Origin: a virus
DNA length: 39,325 bases
Virus record (IMG/VR): IMGVR_UViG_3300033148_004627
Location: 1 to 39,325 of that record
Direction: 5' to 3' (one strand)
This document shows positions 14,137-38,429 of the stretch, one piece after another. The translations under genes and the position numbers were made by a program. Under the pieces are notes generated by a model that worked only from the letters and a program-made list of their open reading frames with translations, was not told the origin of the DNA and did no database searches. Positions within the stretch are counted from its first letter, which is position 1, and every line of letters begins with the position of its first letter.

Positions 14137-14174
14137 AATTGACTTTAGTAATGAATAGAAGGTAACATCACCGT

Positions 14175-14666
14175 ATGAATACGTGTTCTGTTGATAACTG
14201 CCCCAAAGAGGTCTTGGCAAAAGGATATTGCAGCATTCATTATGACAGAAAACGTCTCTACGGCAGATTGGACAGAATAAATCGTATGCCAGGCGAAGGA
14301 TGGCCTAATGAGCAAGGATATCTTTGTATTAAAGTAGGCAAGAAGAGAAAACTTCTTCACAGGAAGATCATGGAAGATCACCTTGGGAGAAAGTTGACGC
14401 GGAAGGAATACGTTCATCATATTGATGGCAATATTCTTAATAACAATATTGAGAACCTTGAGGTAACTAATCATACCAAACATCAACGTGCGCACGCGAG
14501 ATACTACTATGGAAGCACTGACAAACAATGCCATCATTGTAAAAATACCCTCCCAAGAAGCAATTTTTATTGGAGGAAACGTGATCATTCCGTATATAGA
14601 GGAGATACCCACCAAGATTGGTGTCATGATTGTTGCCAGATATATAGAGATAAGATTAAGCATTAA
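14175..14666 (+). CDS. HNH homing endonuclease with N- and C-terminal zinc fingers (163 aa)
   Basis: This is a free-standing HNH nuclease, probably a selfish homing gene. At the N-terminus is a zinc knuckle with Cys 4, Cys 9, Cys 19 and His 22 (pattern C-x4-C-x9-C-x2-HY). In the middle is the HNH core KEYVHHIDGNILNNNIENL, with His 81-His 82, Asp 84 and Asn 91. A second pair of cysteine pairs, CHHC and CHDC, closes the protein. It is the only plus-strand gene inside the virion module, filling the space between the nozzle gene (convergent, 4 bases shared) and the tail fibre gene (divergent, 38 bases apart). A weak purine-rich AGAAGG lies 12 bases before the ATG. Orientation against the operon suggests insertion after the operon was formed. 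Confidence 0.9.
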   Translation: MNTCSVDNCPKEVLAKGYCSIHYDRKRLYGRLDRINRMPGEGWPNEQGYLCIKVGKKRKLLHRKIMEDHLGRKLTRKEYVHHIDGNILNNNIENLEVTNHTKHQRAHARYYYGSTDKQCHHCKNTLPRSNFYWRKRDHSVYRGDTHQDWCHDCCQIYRDKIKH

Positions 14667-25080: not shown

Positions 25081-27453
25081 TCAAAGTCCTCCAACTAACA
25101 ACGAGAGTCGATCCCTTCTACCACCCATATTCATCATACGGTTCTTGTGTTTTTGAACAACACTACGTGTCGCTCTTCCGCCACCCTGAACTTGTATTAA
25201 ACCATAAACAAATGCATCCACCATATCGTCGTGTTTTCCATGGGGAAAGCTCAGAAGTTCATGTTCGAAGTCATGCAGGAACGGAGCGTTCTTTCGAAAG
25301 ATCACACGTCCAGACTGTACATAACCTGCTACCGCTTCAGCTCGTAGACGTTTGGATCTTCCCAGCCGAGATTCAGGTTCCATTGGGATAATAGGAAGAC
25401 TTGACTCTTTCTTCAATGATTGGATCATAGACTGTCCTGCTACCCTATTCTCAATACACACTCTGGAGACACGGTGATGTCTTGACCAATATTCATATTG
25501 TTCGAACATTTTCTGTTTCAAAGTTGGGAAGTTCCAGTGTCCACGGACTACATCTGCTACAAACACTCCGCTCTTCGTAACGAACATAGTTACTCCAGCA
25601 CTATAATCTCCCTCATCCTTCTCTGTAAGAGCACAATCCCAGACCTGCAGGGCGTAGCTGATTTCATCCTTTTCAGGAAGGTTGCCGTACACGAACCAAT
25701 CTCTAATAAACACTTCTCCTTCATCACTGGTAGGACGTTGTTGGTACATCGCATTCCAGTCCCGCGGCGGGAGAAGCGTCTTGTAGTTCTGTTCCAGATA
25801 TTCAAGTGAAAACCACTCAGGCCACAAAGCCTCCCCAGGCGCCCTAAAGGCATCATTATCCTCAGCAATTGCGGGGAAATTTAACAACTTCCACGTATTG
25901 TTCTCATTTTTCTCAGAAAGAAGCCATCCAATGAGATCATCTTCGTGCCATCGAGTATTGTGGCTAATCAATCCGTTAGCAATAAAGTTTTCTGTTCTAT
26001 CTACCTGAATATCAAATACATCCTCTCTACCAACAGGTTTTATTGATGCAATAGTATCAGGAACGATCTCGTAAGTATCGAGCGGCTGCAAGCAGATTAG
26101 CTTCTGTTTTACCATATCCAATGACGAGGTTGCAATTGTTGCAGAGCAACCCTCTAACCTGTTTTGTGTTATGACAGTGGTCAACAAAGAGTCGTCGATT
26201 CCTGTACACTTTGGCCTGGGTATCGGGAAGCTTGTTGCAAATTGCGCAACGCCCCCCCTGAACCTCGACCATTGCTTCGTACTCGTCGACGCCAATACCA
26301 TAACGGTATCGCAAACGTGCCTCGCGATTCGAACGGGGATTGTTCGAAGGTGGACGAACACCATCTTTCCACCGCTGCTTGTTATAGTGTGAATCGCAGT
26401 ATCCCTTACATTTTGCTGGCTTATCACAGCCTTCTGCTGAGCATAATTTACCTTTCCACTTGCCCCAATAGCCCGCAGGATGTTGTCGCCTATCTTGAGA
26501 TTCTTTAGTCGTACCCATTCTTGTTTACCGTTACGCCGAACGAGAAACGGATGTCTCTTGTTTGCTTTAACAGTTATACCAGAACTCATCTTGATTTCAT
26601 AGCATAAATCAAGACCTTGATTCTTCCAATTCATAATCCGAGCTGTTGTGATGCGCCCGTTGTCGTGAGTCGCAACATAGTCCCCAACCTTGATATTCTT
26701 CAATGGCTTCTCTGTTCCGTCCCACATCAAAACAGGCGTATCCCCCGTCATACACATCATAATAATTACTGCTGCTCCCGGTTGGAGTCTTGTGAATGCT
26801 GTTGACGTAAACCAATCCTTAATATTTGATCTAACAGTCTCAGAATCTGCCTCCTCTCTGTTCTTGATCGGGTCGTCAATGATAAGGATGTCTGCACCGC
26901 GTCCTGTAATAGGGCCTCCAACTCCAGCAGCAAACACTCCTCCATATCTTCCAGCGATATCCCATGCTTGTTTGCTGCGTGTGTCAGGATCGAGGGTGAT
27001 GGGGTGCGGGATGTTATTCTTCGTCGCCATCTTACCGAAGAGCTTTTGATATTCGGTGGTCTCAACGAGACTACGCACTTTCCCAGAAAAACCTTCGGCA
27101 AGTTCTGCTCCATGGCTACAGATCATAACACGTTTATCTGGATTACGCCCTAAAAACCAAGCTGGAAAGAACCAAGACACGTGCAAACTCTTCCCGTGCC
27201 GGGGCGGCAACGTGACAATAAGTCTACCGATACCCTCCTTCCCATCACTCGCTACATACCTTTCGAGTCCTTCAAGATGCTCACAGAGGATAGAGTGATG
27301 CTTTGCGTGCTGATATTGAGAGAAACAGTACTCGATAAAGTACCGAAGTTTAAGCCTTCCAAGCTTGATGCGGGTAAGTTCTTCTTCAATTTCAAGGATT
27401 TTATGCTCCGCAGTCTGTGCATTAAGGTTCTTAGCGACGTGTTGAATTGACAT
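25081..27453 (-). CDS. terL: terminase large subunit interrupted by an intein (790 aa precursor; 524 aa after splicing)
   Basis: This is the DNA-packaging motor with ATPase and nuclease domains. The ATPase has a Walker A-like PPRHGKS (residues about 83-89) and a Walker B ILIIDDP (189-195). The coupling motif TRWHEDDL begins at residue 500. The nuclease domain has an acidic VWDCALTE (604-611), CIENR (666-670) and KHDDMVDAF (740-748), the usual three acidic clusters. The intein occupies residues 234-499 (IIMM|C ... HN|TRWHEDDL), so splicing joins the Walker B region directly to TRW. Without splicing the ATPase centre would be split, so splicing should be needed for packaging. A complete HNH gene is nested in another frame within the intein. 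The ATG at 27453 is followed by a normal N-terminal helical region. Confidence 0.93.
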   Translation of the reverse strand: MSIQHVAKNLNAQTAEHKILEIEEELTRIKLGRLKLRYFIEYCFSQYQHAKHHSILCEHLEGLERYVASDGKEGIGRLIVTLPPRHGKSLHVSWFFPAWFLGRNPDKRVMICSHGAELAEGFSGKVRSLVETTEYQKLFGKMATKNNIPHPITLDPDTRSKQAWDIAGRYGGVFAAGVGGPITGRGADILIIDDPIKNREEADSETVRSNIKDWFTSTAFTRLQPGAAVIIMMCMTGDTPVLMWDGTEKPLKNIKVGDYVATHDNGRITTARIMNWKNQGLDLCYEIKMSSGITVKANKRHPFLVRRNGKQEWVRLKNLKIGDNILRAIGASGKVNYAQQKAVISQQNVRDTAIHTITSSGGKMVFVHLRTIPVRIARHVCDTVMVLASTSTKQWSRFRGGVAQFATSFPIPRPKCTGIDDSLLTTVITQNRLEGCSATIATSSLDMVKQKLICLQPLDTYEIVPDTIASIKPVGREDVFDIQVDRTENFIANGLISHNTRWHEDDLIGWLLSEKNENNTWKLLNFPAIAEDNDAFRAPGEALWPEWFSLEYLEQNYKTLLPPRDWNAMYQQRPTSDEGEVFIRDWFVYGNLPEKDEISYALQVWDCALTEKDEGDYSAGVTMFVTKSGVFVADVVRGHWNFPTLKQKMFEQYEYWSRHHRVSRVCIENRVAGQSMIQSLKKESSLPIIPMEPESRLGRSKRLRAEAVAGYVQSGRVIFRKNAPFLHDFEHELLSFPHGKHDDMVDAFVYGLIQVQGGGRATRSVVQKHKNRMMNMGGRRDRLSLLVGGL
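25957..26754 (-). other. intein in the terminase (266 aa)
   Basis: Protein-splicing element inside the large terminase. The first residue is Cys 234, followed by MTGDTPVL (block A/N1). A GITVKANKRHPFLV segment supplies the conserved HPF of block B/N3, and WVRLKNLKIGDNIL supplies N4. The C-terminal part has REDVFDIQVDRTENFIANG (block F/C2) and GLISHN|T (block G/C1), with His-Asn at the end and Thr at +1. N domain is about residues 234-330 and C domain about 460-499. The 130 residues between have no recognisable domain in this frame, because the DNA there encodes the HNH protein in another frame. All splicing residues seem present, so splicing is expected to work. Confidence 0.93.
26057..26518 (-). 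CDS. HNH endonuclease VII-type gene nested out of frame inside the intein (153 aa)
   Basis: A complete gene with ATG and stop lies within the intein DNA, shifted by two bases relative to the terminase frame. It has a zinc knuckle Cys 26, Cys 31, Cys 37-Cys 41 and His 44 (CSAEGCDKPAKCKGYCDSHY). An endonuclease VII-like HNH core follows: CAIC (91-94), FVDHCHNT (Asp 113, His 114, His 116), RGLLCNNCN (Cys 126, Cys 129, Asn 130) and a C-terminal helix NLLAAARYLRD. All core metal and catalytic residues look intact. It would act as the homing enzyme that spreads the intein, but independently translated rather than fused to it. No clear ribosome site precedes the ATG (AAACAAG only). Confidence 0.88.
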   Translation of the reverse strand: MGTTKESQDRRQHPAGYWGKWKGKLCSAEGCDKPAKCKGYCDSHYNKQRWKDGVRPPSNNPRSNREARLRYRYGIGVDEYEAMVEVQGGRCAICNKLPDTQAKVYRNRRLFVDHCHNTKQVRGLLCNNCNLVIGYGKTEANLLAAARYLRDRS

Positions 27454-32145: not shown

Positions 32146-33420
32146 TTACCTCCCTAAACCTAAAACTTCACCCTCTACCTCTTCGAGCGGCAATATAGCC
32201 CTGCTTCCCTCCCCCAACTTAGGTACTTCATCAGCCCAGTTCAACAATGTAACCCTTAACCGGTACATTCCCTTTCTCATTCTTCTCGCTCTCCTCGTAT
32301 TGAGTTTTACTAAAAGACTTATTTGTAAATCAATATCAGATAACAACCTGTGTACCTCCACATCATTACAAACTTCTTGCCTCAGCATATCCTCCACTAA
32401 TTCTGTAAGCCCTTTATTATCAGCATATAAGTTTTTCGCCGTGTTCTGAACGTCTATTGCAGCTTTTCCCTTTACTATTGGATCATTACTTTCTCCTTCC
32501 TCGAATATCCTTAATACTTCCTCTGCGTTTTTATTCTTACTTATGATAGAACTCTTTTTTGTACTTGGTGTCAAAAATCCGCTACCGTCATCCTCCCATT
32601 CATCCCATCCCTTTTCACCGTACCCACCGTACCTGTCATACCCATATCCACTATATCCATAATTTCCATTGTTCACAGAAGAGGAATAGCTACTTGGGAA
32701 TGCTCGAAACTTAATATCATCAGTATCCACCTTCCCATTCTTCCAATGTAGCGTATGTAGCGTTAGTGCTGGTAACTCAGTATCTATCTCTTTACCTTTC
32801 TTGTCCTCGATCTTGTACCCACACTCACTACTTATTACAACATCATCCCCGTATGTCCAGCTATGCAAAGGGTTCTGATTGTTCCTTCCGTAATGTACAT
32901 TTATGAGTTTATGTGTTTCAGTATCAATCTCTAGGAGCACAAAGGCAATACTACCGTTACAGTTTACAGTTTTTCCATCCTCAATATACCGTGCGAGTTC
33001 ATGCAATAGCGTCTCACTATCGTTGTACTTACCTTTCCCGTCCTTGGTGGTGTACTTGATACCGTCCTTATAATGCTCCTTCTTGAGTATATCATTATTC
33101 CATATAATACCGTTATGCGTTAGTGCATACGTCCTCTGATGGTATTTACTATCGCAAATCGGGTGATTCTGAAATTCCACGTTTTCTGTGCTTGTGGGTG
33201 TCCGGTGATGGAATTGTATCAACTGAGTACGAAGCCGTGATACTGCATAAAAACACTCCGCTTCTGTTTTAAATCTGCGTGTCTTCACTAGCCCTCCTCT
33301 CGTTAGATAGGAAAATCCAAAACCCTCAACCCCACGTAACCGTTGGTTATTATATAGCTGAACCAATGAACTGGGGTCAACGTTCTGCTTCCGATTGTAT
33401 AAAGTGACTAAACCACACAT
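32146..33420 (-). CDS. class II glutamine amidotransferase domain protein (424 aa)
   Basis: An Ntn-hydrolase that releases ammonia from glutamine. Cys 2 right after the initiator Met (MCGLVTLYN) is the expected nucleophile after Met removal. FHHRTPT (Arg 73) and a QNHP segment (Asn 85-His 86) fit the glutamine-binding loop, and THNGI (His 102, Asn 103, Gly 104) fits the oxyanion motif. No synthase domain follows: the rest has a Tyr/Gly-rich linker (NYGYSGYGYDRYGGYG) and a helical C-terminus. The ammonia must be used by another protein, and the amidoligase gene starts the same transcript 21 bases upstream. Peptide or protein amidation is the most likely use; asparagine or glucosamine synthesis would need a second domain that is absent. 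Confidence 0.85.
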   Translation of the reverse strand: MCGLVTLYNRKQNVDPSSLVQLYNNQRLRGVEGFGFSYLTRGGLVKTRRFKTEAECFYAVSRLRTQLIQFHHRTPTSTENVEFQNHPICDSKYHQRTYALTHNGIIWNNDILKKEHYKDGIKYTTKDGKGKYNDSETLLHELARYIEDGKTVNCNGSIAFVLLEIDTETHKLINVHYGRNNQNPLHSWTYGDDVVISSECGYKIEDKKGKEIDTELPALTLHTLHWKNGKVDTDDIKFRAFPSSYSSSVNNGNYGYSGYGYDRYGGYGEKGWDEWEDDGSGFLTPSTKKSSIISKNKNAEEVLRIFEEGESNDPIVKGKAAIDVQNTAKNLYADNKGLTELVEDMLRQEVCNDVEVHRLLSDIDLQISLLVKLNTRRARRMRKGMYRLRVTLLNWADEVPKLGEGSRAILPLEEVEGEVLGLGR

Positions 33421-33441: not shown

Positions 33442-35487
33442 TTAGAAGATTTCTGGTATAGGGTTTTCAGCTGTAAAATCCGCCACGGGGTTGTTCCATT
33501 CTCTAGTTTCTTCCACCGTCAAGATATACCCATTAGCTTCCGTAAACCTGAATGCAGACTCCTGGTTTCCAACTCTGAGTCTACTTGGAGTAGGGTCTTC
33601 ATCATCAATCTCCATAGAAGATTCTTCGTTTATTGCAGCCGCCTCATCATGTGCTTGTTGGATGCTTAGCTCCCGCGCTTGCGCGTCCTCATTCGTAATA
33701 TGGTAGTAAATACGCTCCCACTTATTCAATAAGGGTATACGCTCCTCATATGGCATGGAGTACAATCTTTGCTTTTCCTGAATAAATTTTACAGTCCCTT
33801 TGTTAAGTTTCAGCATCTTACATATCTTGTCAGAATGTCCAATGGGCTTTTTACAAAACGTGTACAACTTCTTGCAGTCCCTGTCTGTAGCGGTCTTTGC
33901 AAGATCCCAGATAGCATCAATGAACTTGAGCCAGTGTACTATCGCTCTCGCGTCTGCAGTCGCATGGTGCGCTCTTACTTCTACTGTTCCACCTGTATTC
34001 GGACGGGTGTTTTCCTCCTCATATTCTGCAACGTACCCACACTGGCACTCTTCGGGCTCACCTGTTCCACACCTATTGCACCAGAAACTATCCCAGTTAA
34101 TCCTCGCTTCCCCTTGCATCATAGGGGTTAGGTTCATGGAAGTGTACTTATCGTCTATGTGTCTCTGATACTTCAATGCTTCGGTTAGGTTTTTCGTCAC
34201 GTCTAGTATTTTCCTAAAACTCTCTTCACAGAATAAACGAACATGAGTTTCGTCTCTCCTCTCCCTTGGTAGCATGGAGTAAGCAAATTTCTCCAATATA
34301 AGCCACACCTTAAACACTTGTTCTGCTGCTATATTCTTATCCTGTACGTGTACGTGAATCCCACTGGCGTTGTAGGTATGGGGGTATCCGTTCACTACAG
34401 CACAAAGGGCACGCGTTGCCTTTGTAATCGTTCTCCTATCACTAGGCTGTGATACAACCTCGTACCCATTGTGTACGCTGCCATCCCCCCAAACCCCAAA
34501 CTTCACACCATCAATGTTCAATGCGACTATATCTTTCTTCATTTCTCCACGCGCAACAATGTCATTGAACTCAAATTCTATACCATACGTCCGCACACCA
34601 TTCTTTTTAACAATAGGTGTATAACTAATGCCCCGACTATCCCACATACTCATCTTTCTTCTGCAATCGTCACACAGATATTGTTTTTTCACCTTATGCT
34701 TCCTTTCCTTTGTAATTGCGTTTTTTCCGCAACGTCCACATATCGCAATCCCCAGTTTAGCTACAGCTCTCTTTGAGAGACAATAGCCTAAACACTTCGG
34801 ATGCTTCTTCCCCTGTTTGTGCGCTACGCACTCCTTATCTACATACACACCTAGCGACTCGCAAAAATAACAATTCTTCCGTATTTCTCTCTCCCATATT
34901 GCATATTGCTTTCCTTTCGGCGTAAGTATCTGCTGCATTCTATAAGGTGCGCAACGTCTAGGTGCTCCCATCTTAGTGGCAAGAGAGTGCGGAGCACTCA
35001 TCTCCTCTCCCGAGTAGTAACACTTGAGCTTGGTATCTGTAGGAATGTGCAGATACGGGCACAAATCTTGACTCAATATTGGACGCTTTTGACCATATCT
35101 TACCTTCTCACCATACCTAATATCAGCCTCACGCCATCGGTACGATCGAAAAATTGCATTAAATATATAATTGACTCCATCCGGGCTTGACGGGATCACG
35201 TAAACATCTCGCTCAATCACCCCGCGTGTTTTTACATCAGAACATACCCCTACTTGATACCTTTGCGTCTCACCCCAGTATATATTTTCTGCATAGAAAG
35301 AAGGCAGTTTAACCGGTTCAATCTGCACCCCATCAATCACAGGAAAATGTATATACACATTATCAATTCTGTACGTCTTCCCCTCCTCTCTTATACCACT
35401 AATATGATATTTTATATAGACACATTTACGCTTTGCATCCTCAATGGTTCCACTGTCTATATGGTAGTTATAGTAACAATTAGACAT
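33442..35487 (-). CDS. amidoligase (GCS-like COOH-NH2 ligase) with zinc-binding N-terminus (681 aa)
   Basis: This would form an amide or peptide bond using ATP. The C-terminal domain (from about residue 300) has the Amidoligase_2 signature: YGIEFEF (Glu 304, Glu 306), DGSV with Glu 343 (GYEVVSQP), GIHVHV (His 378, His 380), and TVEVRAHH (Glu 503, Arg 505) followed by the WLKFIDAIW helix. Before it are cysteine pairs that look like treble-clef or ribbon zinc sites (CYFC 206-209, CGRC 250-253, CDDC 272-275). A further zinc-like insertion CNRC...CQC is at 470-483. The N-terminal 200 residues are unique to me. The ATG overlaps the preceding 56-residue gene by eight bases. The substrate is unknown. 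Confidence 0.85.
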   Translation of the reverse strand: MSNCYYNYHIDSGTIEDAKRKCVYIKYHISGIREEGKTYRIDNVYIHFPVIDGVQIEPVKLPSFYAENIYWGETQRYQVGVCSDVKTRGVIERDVYVIPSSPDGVNYIFNAIFRSYRWREADIRYGEKVRYGQKRPILSQDLCPYLHIPTDTKLKCYYSGEEMSAPHSLATKMGAPRRCAPYRMQQILTPKGKQYAIWEREIRKNCYFCESLGVYVDKECVAHKQGKKHPKCLGYCLSKRAVAKLGIAICGRCGKNAITKERKHKVKKQYLCDDCRRKMSMWDSRGISYTPIVKKNGVRTYGIEFEFNDIVARGEMKKDIVALNIDGVKFGVWGDGSVHNGYEVVSQPSDRRTITKATRALCAVVNGYPHTYNASGIHVHVQDKNIAAEQVFKVWLILEKFAYSMLPRERRDETHVRLFCEESFRKILDVTKNLTEALKYQRHIDDKYTSMNLTPMMQGEARINWDSFWCNRCGTGEPEECQCGYVAEYEEENTRPNTGGTVEVRAHHATADARAIVHWLKFIDAIWDLAKTATDRDCKKLYTFCKKPIGHSDKICKMLKLNKGTVKFIQEKQRLYSMPYEERIPLLNKWERIYYHITNEDAQARELSIQQAHDEAAAINEESSMEIDDEDPTPSRLRVGNQESAFRFTEANGYILTVEETREWNNPVADFTAENPIPEIF

Positions 35488-37739: not shown

Positions 37740-38008
37740 GGGGTTGATTGGGAATCGAGAATCGAAACAAGAGCTTTGCAGCGCGTGGGAAGGTCAGCTT
37801 TAGCACCATAACCATTGGTAAGATCACTAATATCTTCATGGTTTAGTATTCTCCAATACTCCTCCCACAATTCCTCATCTTCCATCATCCTCTCCTCCAC
37901 CATGCGAAAATCATTCCAATCTTCCATAGGATTCCAGTATGCCCCCTGTGTACCATCTTCCCACCCTATGAATTCCGCTAATTTCTCAATTATTTCAGTA
38001 TCAGACAT
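37736..38008 (-). CDS. small acidic phage protein, ABA-sandwich-like (90 aa)
   Basis: The layout EKLAEFIGWEDGTQGAYWNP, MEDWNDFRMVEERMMEDEEL and a late CKALVSIL helix resembles the small phage proteins with an alpha-beta-alpha sandwich domain, whose function is not known to me. The start lies eight bases before the stop of the zinc-finger gene, and its stop overlaps the next start as ATGA. Confidence 0.65.
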   Translation of the reverse strand: MSDTEIIEKLAEFIGWEDGTQGAYWNPMEDWNDFRMVEERMMEDEELWEEYWRILNHEDISDLTNGYGAKADLPTRCKALVSILDSQSTP

Positions 38009-38429
38009 CTGTGTGGTGAGTATGATGTAGAACAGTTATTTTGCGTTTCCTTTCCGCTCGTTTTGCATGTTTGTTATAGCATCGAAGACAACATTTGCTA
38101 TTGTAGGCTTTGGGTAAATGTTCGCACTTTGGGAATGCTCTTTTATTGTGATGCACCCTCTCTTGTGGCTCTCCAACACTCCCACCTCTTCTTAATCTTG
38201 TGTAGTGCATACAGCACATTCCTTTTACGATTGATGGCTTCCTACATCCTTTAACAGCACAGAATTTTTCTATCTCTTCTGCCGATGGTGTAGGAGGGGA
38301 AAGAGGGGAATATTTGGGCTTCCAAAACTGCCACCATAGACGCTTCCTGCAATAGTATTGCATAACAAGGTCTAGTTGCAGTTTGCCAACACGCTCCCAG
38401 TAGGTTTTTTCTATAGAGTCTTTAATCAC
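38001..38429 (-). CDS. zinc-finger protein with HNH-type knuckle, no nuclease core (142 aa)
   Basis: Starts with GTG overlapping the previous stop (GTGA), which fixes the start. Residues about 57-87 hold CAVKGCRKPSIVKGMCCMHY, the same C-x4-C...G-x-C-x2-HY knuckle as in the HNH genes at 14175 and 26057, followed by a CEHL/CCLRC segment that may form a second site, and a very basic tail with histidines. The HNH catalytic core is absent. It may be a DNA-binding remnant of a homing endonuclease or a domesticated regulator. Confidence 0.6.
   Translation of the reverse strand: MIKDSIEKTYWERVGKLQLDLVMQYYCRKRLWWQFWKPKYSPLSPPTPSAEEIEKFCAVKGCRKPSIVKGMCCMHYTRLRRGGSVGEPQERVHHNKRAFPKCEHLPKAYNSKCCLRCYNKHAKRAERKRKITVLHHTHHTDV

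Follow-up and report, generated by a model that had tools for sequence, protein, structure and literature searches.

A large terminase gene (terL) in a viral sequence of 39,325 nucleotides (IMG/VR virus record IMGVR_UViG_3300033148_004627, positions 1 to 39,325; this whole stretch is the window below) is split by an intein, and a complete HNH endonuclease gene lies inside that intein in another reading frame. The locus raises the question of whether this gene encodes a freely translated homing enzyme overprinting the intein, whether it is an in-frame endonuclease broken by two frameshifts, or whether it is an assembly artefact, which were the three readings offered by an initial annotation. 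Comparisons with related phages support the first, with its translation and homing role being what we infer from them, and exclude the other two, as relatives carry the gene in the same phase. We consider the most probable explanation (at roughly 0.88) to be a mobile intein at the terminase C-motif, with its homing endonuclease translated separately from a gene overprinted on it.

Architecture of the terminase locus

The terL gene forms one continuous open reading frame (ORF) of 790 amino acids (aa) on the minus strand (25081–27453), matched by Pfam Terminase_6N/6C and by PHROG 38 (terminase large subunit, 9e-110). As initially annotated, the frame is interrupted by an intein with splicing blocks (25957–26754, minus strand; Pfam Intein_splicing, E = 4.6e-18). 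Translation of the ORF places the C-terminal end of the N-extein (26755–27453, minus strand) at AVIIMM, and translation and alignment place the start of the C-extein (25081–25956, minus strand) at TRWHEDD; an empty allele from another phage (L242) reads AVIIMM/TRWHEDDL across the junction. Between them, the 266-aa intein opens with CMTGDTPV and closes with ...TENFIANGLISHN, followed by TRWHEDD, and occupies the TerL C-motif site.

Alignment, AlphaFold and Foldseek all assign this intein to the class-1 type, running from C1 to SHN before the extein Thr. Among the class-1 residues (C1, N65/H68 and H265-N266 ahead of Thr), H265 was conserved in at least 90% of 27 aligned inteins and the others were invariant. 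The AlphaFold model of the TerL-frame product (from 27 sequences) contains a confident Hint splicing domain, with 121 residues at a predicted local distance difference test score (pLDDT) of at least 90. Its N-terminal part comprises intein residues 1–98 (26461–26754, minus strand; pLDDT ~91–97 in blocks 1–9), and its C-terminal part residues 222–266 (25957–26091, minus strand; confident strands from residue 228; blocks VFDIQVDRTENFIANGLISHN). The best PDB matches to the model were the Ssp and Npu DnaB mini-inteins, with the Ssp DnaB mini-intein at the top (Foldseek E = 3.6e-9). The predicted fold, together with Cys1, the block B Asn/His and the C-terminal His-Asn plus Thr, identifies a class-1 intein; the expectation that it splices is drawn from a homologue only (see below). 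Residues 99–221, the overprinted stretch, are predicted to be disordered (pLDDT < 50), and Pfam returned no family for this in-frame linker, which bears out its earlier description as a linker of no known family.

The nested gene (26057–26518, minus strand) lies entirely within the intein, two bases out of phase with terL, and encodes 153 aa from ATG to TGA. The claim of an intact HNH protein with its own start and stop therefore holds: the product matches Endonuclease_7 (PF02945, E = 4.5e-20), it aligns to T4 endonuclease VII (EndoVII) and has the EndoVII-type motif CxxC ... DHxH ... CxxCN, and residues C91, C94, D113, H114, H116, C126, C129 and N130 were invariant in 25 sequences. Their zinc-binding and catalytic roles are presumably those of the EndoVII residues, an assignment aided by titles naming the N62D and H43N mutants. 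The AlphaFold model of the HNH-frame product had a mean pLDDT of 82.4.

The nested phase is conserved among relatives

Intein homing endonucleases are normally in-frame domains (LAGLIDADG or HNH, as in bifunctional inteins), and this established arrangement is what speaks for an in-frame endonuclease displaced by two indels or by two assembly errors. The phase in other genomes argues otherwise. Searches of phage records (tblastn of TerL and HNH) recovered the same two-base offset between HNH and TerL in phages of Gordonia and Mycobacterium, and in all six records fetched (Affeca, Angelicage, Vivi2, Phlyer, phi1_186018 and AlanGrant) both frames were open and the HNH was intact in the same phase. 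The HNH proteins of these six actinophage records are 44–53% identical to that of the window, and the nested gene was annotated in none of the six.

A scan of IMG/VR with an HNH profile detected 543 relatives, the best 80 of which were analysed. For 79 of these the HNH is covered by a long ORF in the +2 arrangement, and in the sole exception (L072) the terL frame is interrupted upstream; the HNH was in frame in none of these 80 and spanned by the third frame in none, and its own frame never exceeded 250 aa. An independent scan used a pattern covering the intein C-terminus and first extein residues, which is blind to the HNH. It returned at least 120 stretches, of which 119 were classified and nine, cut by a contig end, were set aside. 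Among the matches listed, the HNH lay at offset 2 in 108 of the 110 uncut inteins, no HNH match rose above threshold in the remaining two, and none of the 110 had it in frame or at offset 1. These two sets overlap and contain repeats, giving a total of 142 distinct inteins in 180 loci. The comparison of endonuclease phase across other terminase inteins proposed by the initial annotation thus gave no in-phase case, either in the 80 or, among the matches listed, in the 110.

Bacterial genome contigs contained 31 HNH relatives, the 10 closest of which are nested in the same phase: in Bradyrhizobium, Nonomuraea and Mycolicibacterium, and in metagenome-assembled genomes labelled (bin labels taken as given) Anaerolineae, Eremiobacterota, Sulfuritalea, Endozoicomonas, Geobacteraceae, Chloroflexi and one uncultured bacterium. 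The remaining 21 relatives stand alone as genes, and among them the +2 frame spans the match in one and the +1 frame in three. A scan for the HNH core motif yielded at least 120 stretches and 92 new loci that were classified, the other 28 stretches not being new loci. Among the matches listed, 85 of the 92 were free-standing and seven had the +2 arrangement (five clear TerL inteins, one locus cut by a contig end, L269, and one in a 260-aa ORF, L251); neither third-frame nesting nor a long in-frame fusion occurred among these 92. In L251, the HNH is 111 aa long and no intein motifs were found in the ORF around it.

The +2 nesting is thus the rule in every set of relatives examined, and it is kept across phages whose terminases are only ~30–45% identical to that of the window. 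The arrangement had been called unusual, and this stands insofar as the endonuclease is not in frame, but it is not peculiar to this genome. Because other phages, isolates included, share the phase, and because both ends of the overlap fall within splicing sequence that the flanking intein conserves in the TerL frame, the frameshift and assembly readings fail; agreement between isolate genomes and independent metagenomes makes the chance of either virtually nil.

Selection acts on the HNH frame

Statistics on substitutions, stops and start signals were drawn from 136 intact members (intein length above 255 aa and an open HNH segment of 130 aa or more, criteria that leave out five decayed copies and one shorter intein), either as 122 non-redundant representatives or as 33 independent pairs. 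Differences in the HNH core were distributed 738/486/1811 over HNH codon positions 1/2/3 in the 33 pairs, and HNH position 3 coincides with TerL position 2. The analysis of codon positions that had been suggested to separate the frames hence gave an excess at the wobble position of the nested gene. Mean amino-acid identity over the core was 0.80 in the HNH frame versus 0.54 in the TerL frame, with the HNH value the larger in all 33 pairs. The N-terminal splicing region shows the opposite: over the 155 pairs used, TerL codon positions 1/2/3 carried 2059/1641/4774 differences, and the pile-up at TerL position 3 marks TerL as the constrained frame there.

The TerL frame across the HNH core was stop-free in all 122 representatives, compared with 10.3 expected after synonymous recoding of the HNH (mean 2.6 stops), which excludes an open frame by chance and agrees with the earlier remark that some 460 open bases argue for selection or recent change. 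The third frame was open in none of the 122 (0.7 expected, mean 9.0 stops). Since fewer stops are expected in the TerL frame than in the third frame, the phase in use is the permissive one. The TerL-frame linker is rich in Thr (12.5%), Ala (11.4%) and Ser (10.4%) because its second codon positions come from HNH wobble positions. These patterns indicate that the HNH frame is under coding selection and the overlapping TerL frame is just kept stop-free.

The same data bear on whether the HNH frame could be a non-expressed relic or an accidental ORF. Such a reading would fit its lack of annotation in the six phage records and the existence of the five decayed copies, and it is highly improbable given the position-3 excess, the higher HNH-frame identity in every pair, the invariant catalytic and zinc residues and the conserved start described below.

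Probable mobility and decay of the intein

Intein presence is polymorphic at this site. The TerL nearest to that of the window in IMG/VR (L242, 82% identity over the C-extein) has no intein there, and the C-extein query from the Gordonia phage Vivi2 is 99.9% identical to the empty allele of the Gordonia phage Brandonk123. Among the 60 rows listed for this query (86 records matched, with RefSeq and GenBank copies counted separately), 18 mapped to the coordinate of intein-plus alleles and 42 to that of empty alleles. Phlyer is likewise intein-plus and RagingRooster empty, so that presence and absence occur in near-identical host genes in two phage pairs (Vivi2 versus Brandonk123, Phlyer versus RagingRooster) and at 82% identity for the window and L242. 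This patchy distribution is accompanied by divergence of the element between close hosts: Vivi2 and Angelicage have near-identical terminases and the same insertion site, with inteins only 68% identical in nucleotides, and a metagenomic pair (L005/L007) has exteins 0.98 identical and HNHs 0.50 identical. Across 97 representatives, HNH similarity correlates better with that of the splicing domain (Spearman 0.50) than with that of the exteins (0.33), as expected if HNH and splicing domain travel together. For the window, 95 of 96 comparisons gave a higher similarity for the HNH (mean 0.49) than for the exteins (mean 0.38).

Five of the 142 distinct inteins (L130, L155, L197, L100 and L217) have a shortened or broken HNH and retain an intact TerL frame and HNH-frame remnants. 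These copies would represent the decay stage expected of a homing cycle, and as such form a ready-made series for studying it.

The nested HNH might instead be expressed and kept for a service to the phage, such as terminase-coupled DNA cleavage or recombination, T4 EndoVII being a resolvase. HNH proteins can also assist terminases, as stated in PMC11855218. Near-identical relatives that lack the whole element, an intein and HNH that resemble their counterparts more closely than the exteins do (window versus 95 of 96 relatives), and the loss or breakage of the HNH in those five copies with the intein intact nevertheless make this alternative unlikely, and we favour retention through homing.

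Variation in the HNH itself was also seen. AlanGrant (L010) and the inteins of about 300 aa encode an HNH in which the usual zinc-finger-like segment is preceded by an additional one (CxxxxC...CxxxH), and AlanGrant and phi1_186018 have exteins 0.91 identical and HNHs 0.52 identical.

Start site and probable translation of the nested gene

The nested ATG (26518–26516, minus strand) is built from the last base of an intein Glu codon and the TG of an intein Trp codon (TGG, 26517–26515). This Trp, located after block B, was present in 136 of 136 intact inteins, and the base ahead of its codon was A in 113 and G in 23, never C or T, which gives ATG or GTG in the HNH frame in each case. It provides the only candidate HNH start in 89 of the 136. 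No member has, just before the Trp, a residue encoded solely by codons ending in C or T, and where the codon there was free to end in either base it ended in a purine in 27 of 27 cases (12.7 expected). Mean duplex energy with the anti-Shine-Dalgarno (anti-SD) sequence dips to -6.75 kcal/mol upstream of the nested start, compared with about -0.5 to -3.7 kcal/mol in the preceding 60 nt, and an SD-like 4-mer begins at -11 in 86 of the 122 representatives. The window has GGTAA at that shared position (26525–26529, minus strand; -11 to -7), and the TAA within it (26527–26525) is an upstream stop in the HNH frame, six bases before the ATG. Taken together, these features suggest that the HNH is probably translated by internal initiation at the Trp-site start.

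Relative to terL the HNH is read in the -1 frame, so a -1 slip would also reach it, and programmed frameshifting could then yield a fusion of N-extein, N-terminal intein and HNH. Of the 122 representatives, 16 do have slippery heptamers in the stretch from the upstream stop to the HNH domain, but synonymous recoding predicts 11.8, i.e., there is no enrichment, and such a mechanism would have no need of a conserved start with an SD-like site at a constant distance. We regard frameshifting as very unlikely and retain internal initiation.

Several observations weigh against an overprinted homing gene with a Trp-built start. The Trp-site start is usable in 135 members, 46 of which have further candidate starts, and in one of the 136 a stop separates that start from the HNH. 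Control codons near the Trp also deviate in purine use (z of -11.4 at W-9, 10.7 at W-4 and 6–7 at W+1 to W+3), which weakens the purine-ending codon as sole proof of a start. Synonymous recodings average -6.23 kcal/mol, with a minimum of -6.72 kcal/mol among 100 set means, close to the -6.75 observed, so most of the SD signal is carried by the intein amino acids; the duplex predicted for the window's own SD-like site is weak (-3.1 kcal/mol). The HNH model has weak Foldseek matches to T4 EndoVII (E = 5.1e-3) and Hpy99I (E = 0.03), with sequence profiles matching better (3.5e-7 for T4 EndoVII, 1e7d, and 7.9e-6 for Hpy99I). Lastly, mismatches within 100 nt 5' of the insertion site are raised in intein-plus versus empty pairs, but two empty alleles, Brandonk123 and Jabberwocky, differ as much there (10 mismatches), and the flanks consequently give no clean co-conversion signal.

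A model for the overprinted intein

We propose that one mRNA would give rise to both a TerL precursor and a free HNH enzyme. In the precursor, the overprinted stretch would be a disordered linker joining the two Hint halves, and the intein should therefore still be able to splice out. The free EndoVII-type HNH, made by internal initiation at the ATG or GTG overlapping the invariant Trp codon, would cut intein-free terL alleles of co-infecting phages, and repair from the intein copy would carry intein and nested gene jointly into the empty site. On balance, we also think it somewhat probable that this represents a widespread class of mobile intein, in which splicing domain and endonuclease are overlapping genes and the Trp-built start has its own ribosome-binding site, spread among the terminases of phages of several bacterial phyla.

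If the model is correct, a free-standing HNH gene could turn into an intein endonuclease with no fusion at any stage, and the amount of enzyme would depend on the internal start and not on TerL synthesis. The locus offers a clear natural example of overprinting: selection is demonstrable on one frame, and the other is just held open. It also leads to predictions about internal translation, homing and the splicing of the terminase that can be tested in laboratory phages (Vivi2/Brandonk123 and Phlyer/RagingRooster).

Other genes in the window

A 163-aa ORF on the plus strand, opposite to the main genes (14175–14666), matches HNH_3 (PF13392, E = 2.1e-9) and is possibly another, free-standing homing endonuclease; antisense to it is a 172-aa ORF with no Pfam match (14145–14663, minus strand). 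The product of a further minus-strand gene (38001–38429) shows weak similarity to residues 24–67 of the nested HNH, in its zinc-finger part (E = 1.3e-4), and matched no Pfam family. Two adjoining minus-strand genes (32146–33420 and 33442–35487) match glutamine amidotransferase (GATase_6/7) and Amidoligase_2, respectively, an unusual pair for a phage.

Comparison with known systems

Splicing of a homologous intein has been demonstrated. The whole TerL6-f intein of mycobacteriophage Chandler gp6 was cloned by Kelley et al. 2016 (PMC5050341) and is reported to splice efficiently in an MBP-intein-GFP assay. It belongs to the same TerL6 family and C-motif site as the window intein, and the Chandler record carries a nested HNH in the same phase, which implies that this architecture is compatible with splicing, at least in Escherichia coli. 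The available portion of that article names endonuclease domains only for TerL1-b and TerL1-c, tests cleavage for those two alone and does not mention a nested HNH in TerL6-f. Multiple inteins in one terminase have also been described, the TerL of cyanophage Mic1 carrying two (PMC7156551). With the nested HNH unannotated in the six records opened, intein surveys confined to the host frame would score such inteins as lacking an endonuclease.

No description of an intein with an out-of-frame endonuclease within it emerged from our literature search, which did not extend to bioRxiv or most subscription journals and hence does not prove that none exists. A 2025 preprint on actinophage inteins with a 'non-canonical architecture', by the group that described the ShiLan domain, may describe this or a similar architecture; the occurrence outside actinophages, the frame statistics and the start and SD results presented here were obtained independently of it. 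The ShiLan domain itself (Arsenault, Gosselin and Gogarten 2025, PMC11855218) is a hidden, out-of-frame HNH in a phage DNA methylase, and another methylase case has been announced (PMC12613952). As in the window, the ShiLan HNH lies out of frame in an insertion that is open in the host frame and patchily distributed; it lies in the third frame and has a GTG start. It differs in that no splicing domain was found and the insertion is expected by its authors to stay in the protein. In the window, the phase is similar, but the overprinted DNA belongs to a bona fide intein with a complete Hint domain, and the host protein is a terminase; an out-of-frame HNH in an insertion without splicing domains is therefore not what is present here.

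By sequence, the window HNH shares the nuclease fold of T4 EndoVII, Hpy99I and the free-standing EndoVII-type HNH genes of phages, the last being ordinary genes without a host frame. As in bifunctional inteins, the endonuclease is located between the N- and C-terminal splicing blocks. Unlike in those inteins, it is not in frame with the splicing domain, so the window element is not one of them: the endonuclease is a separate gene in another frame, and enzyme and splicing domain are different polypeptides. Mobile inteins with a homing endonuclease are thus well known, and what differs here is that the putative endonuclease is encoded as a complete overlapping gene and not as an in-frame domain.

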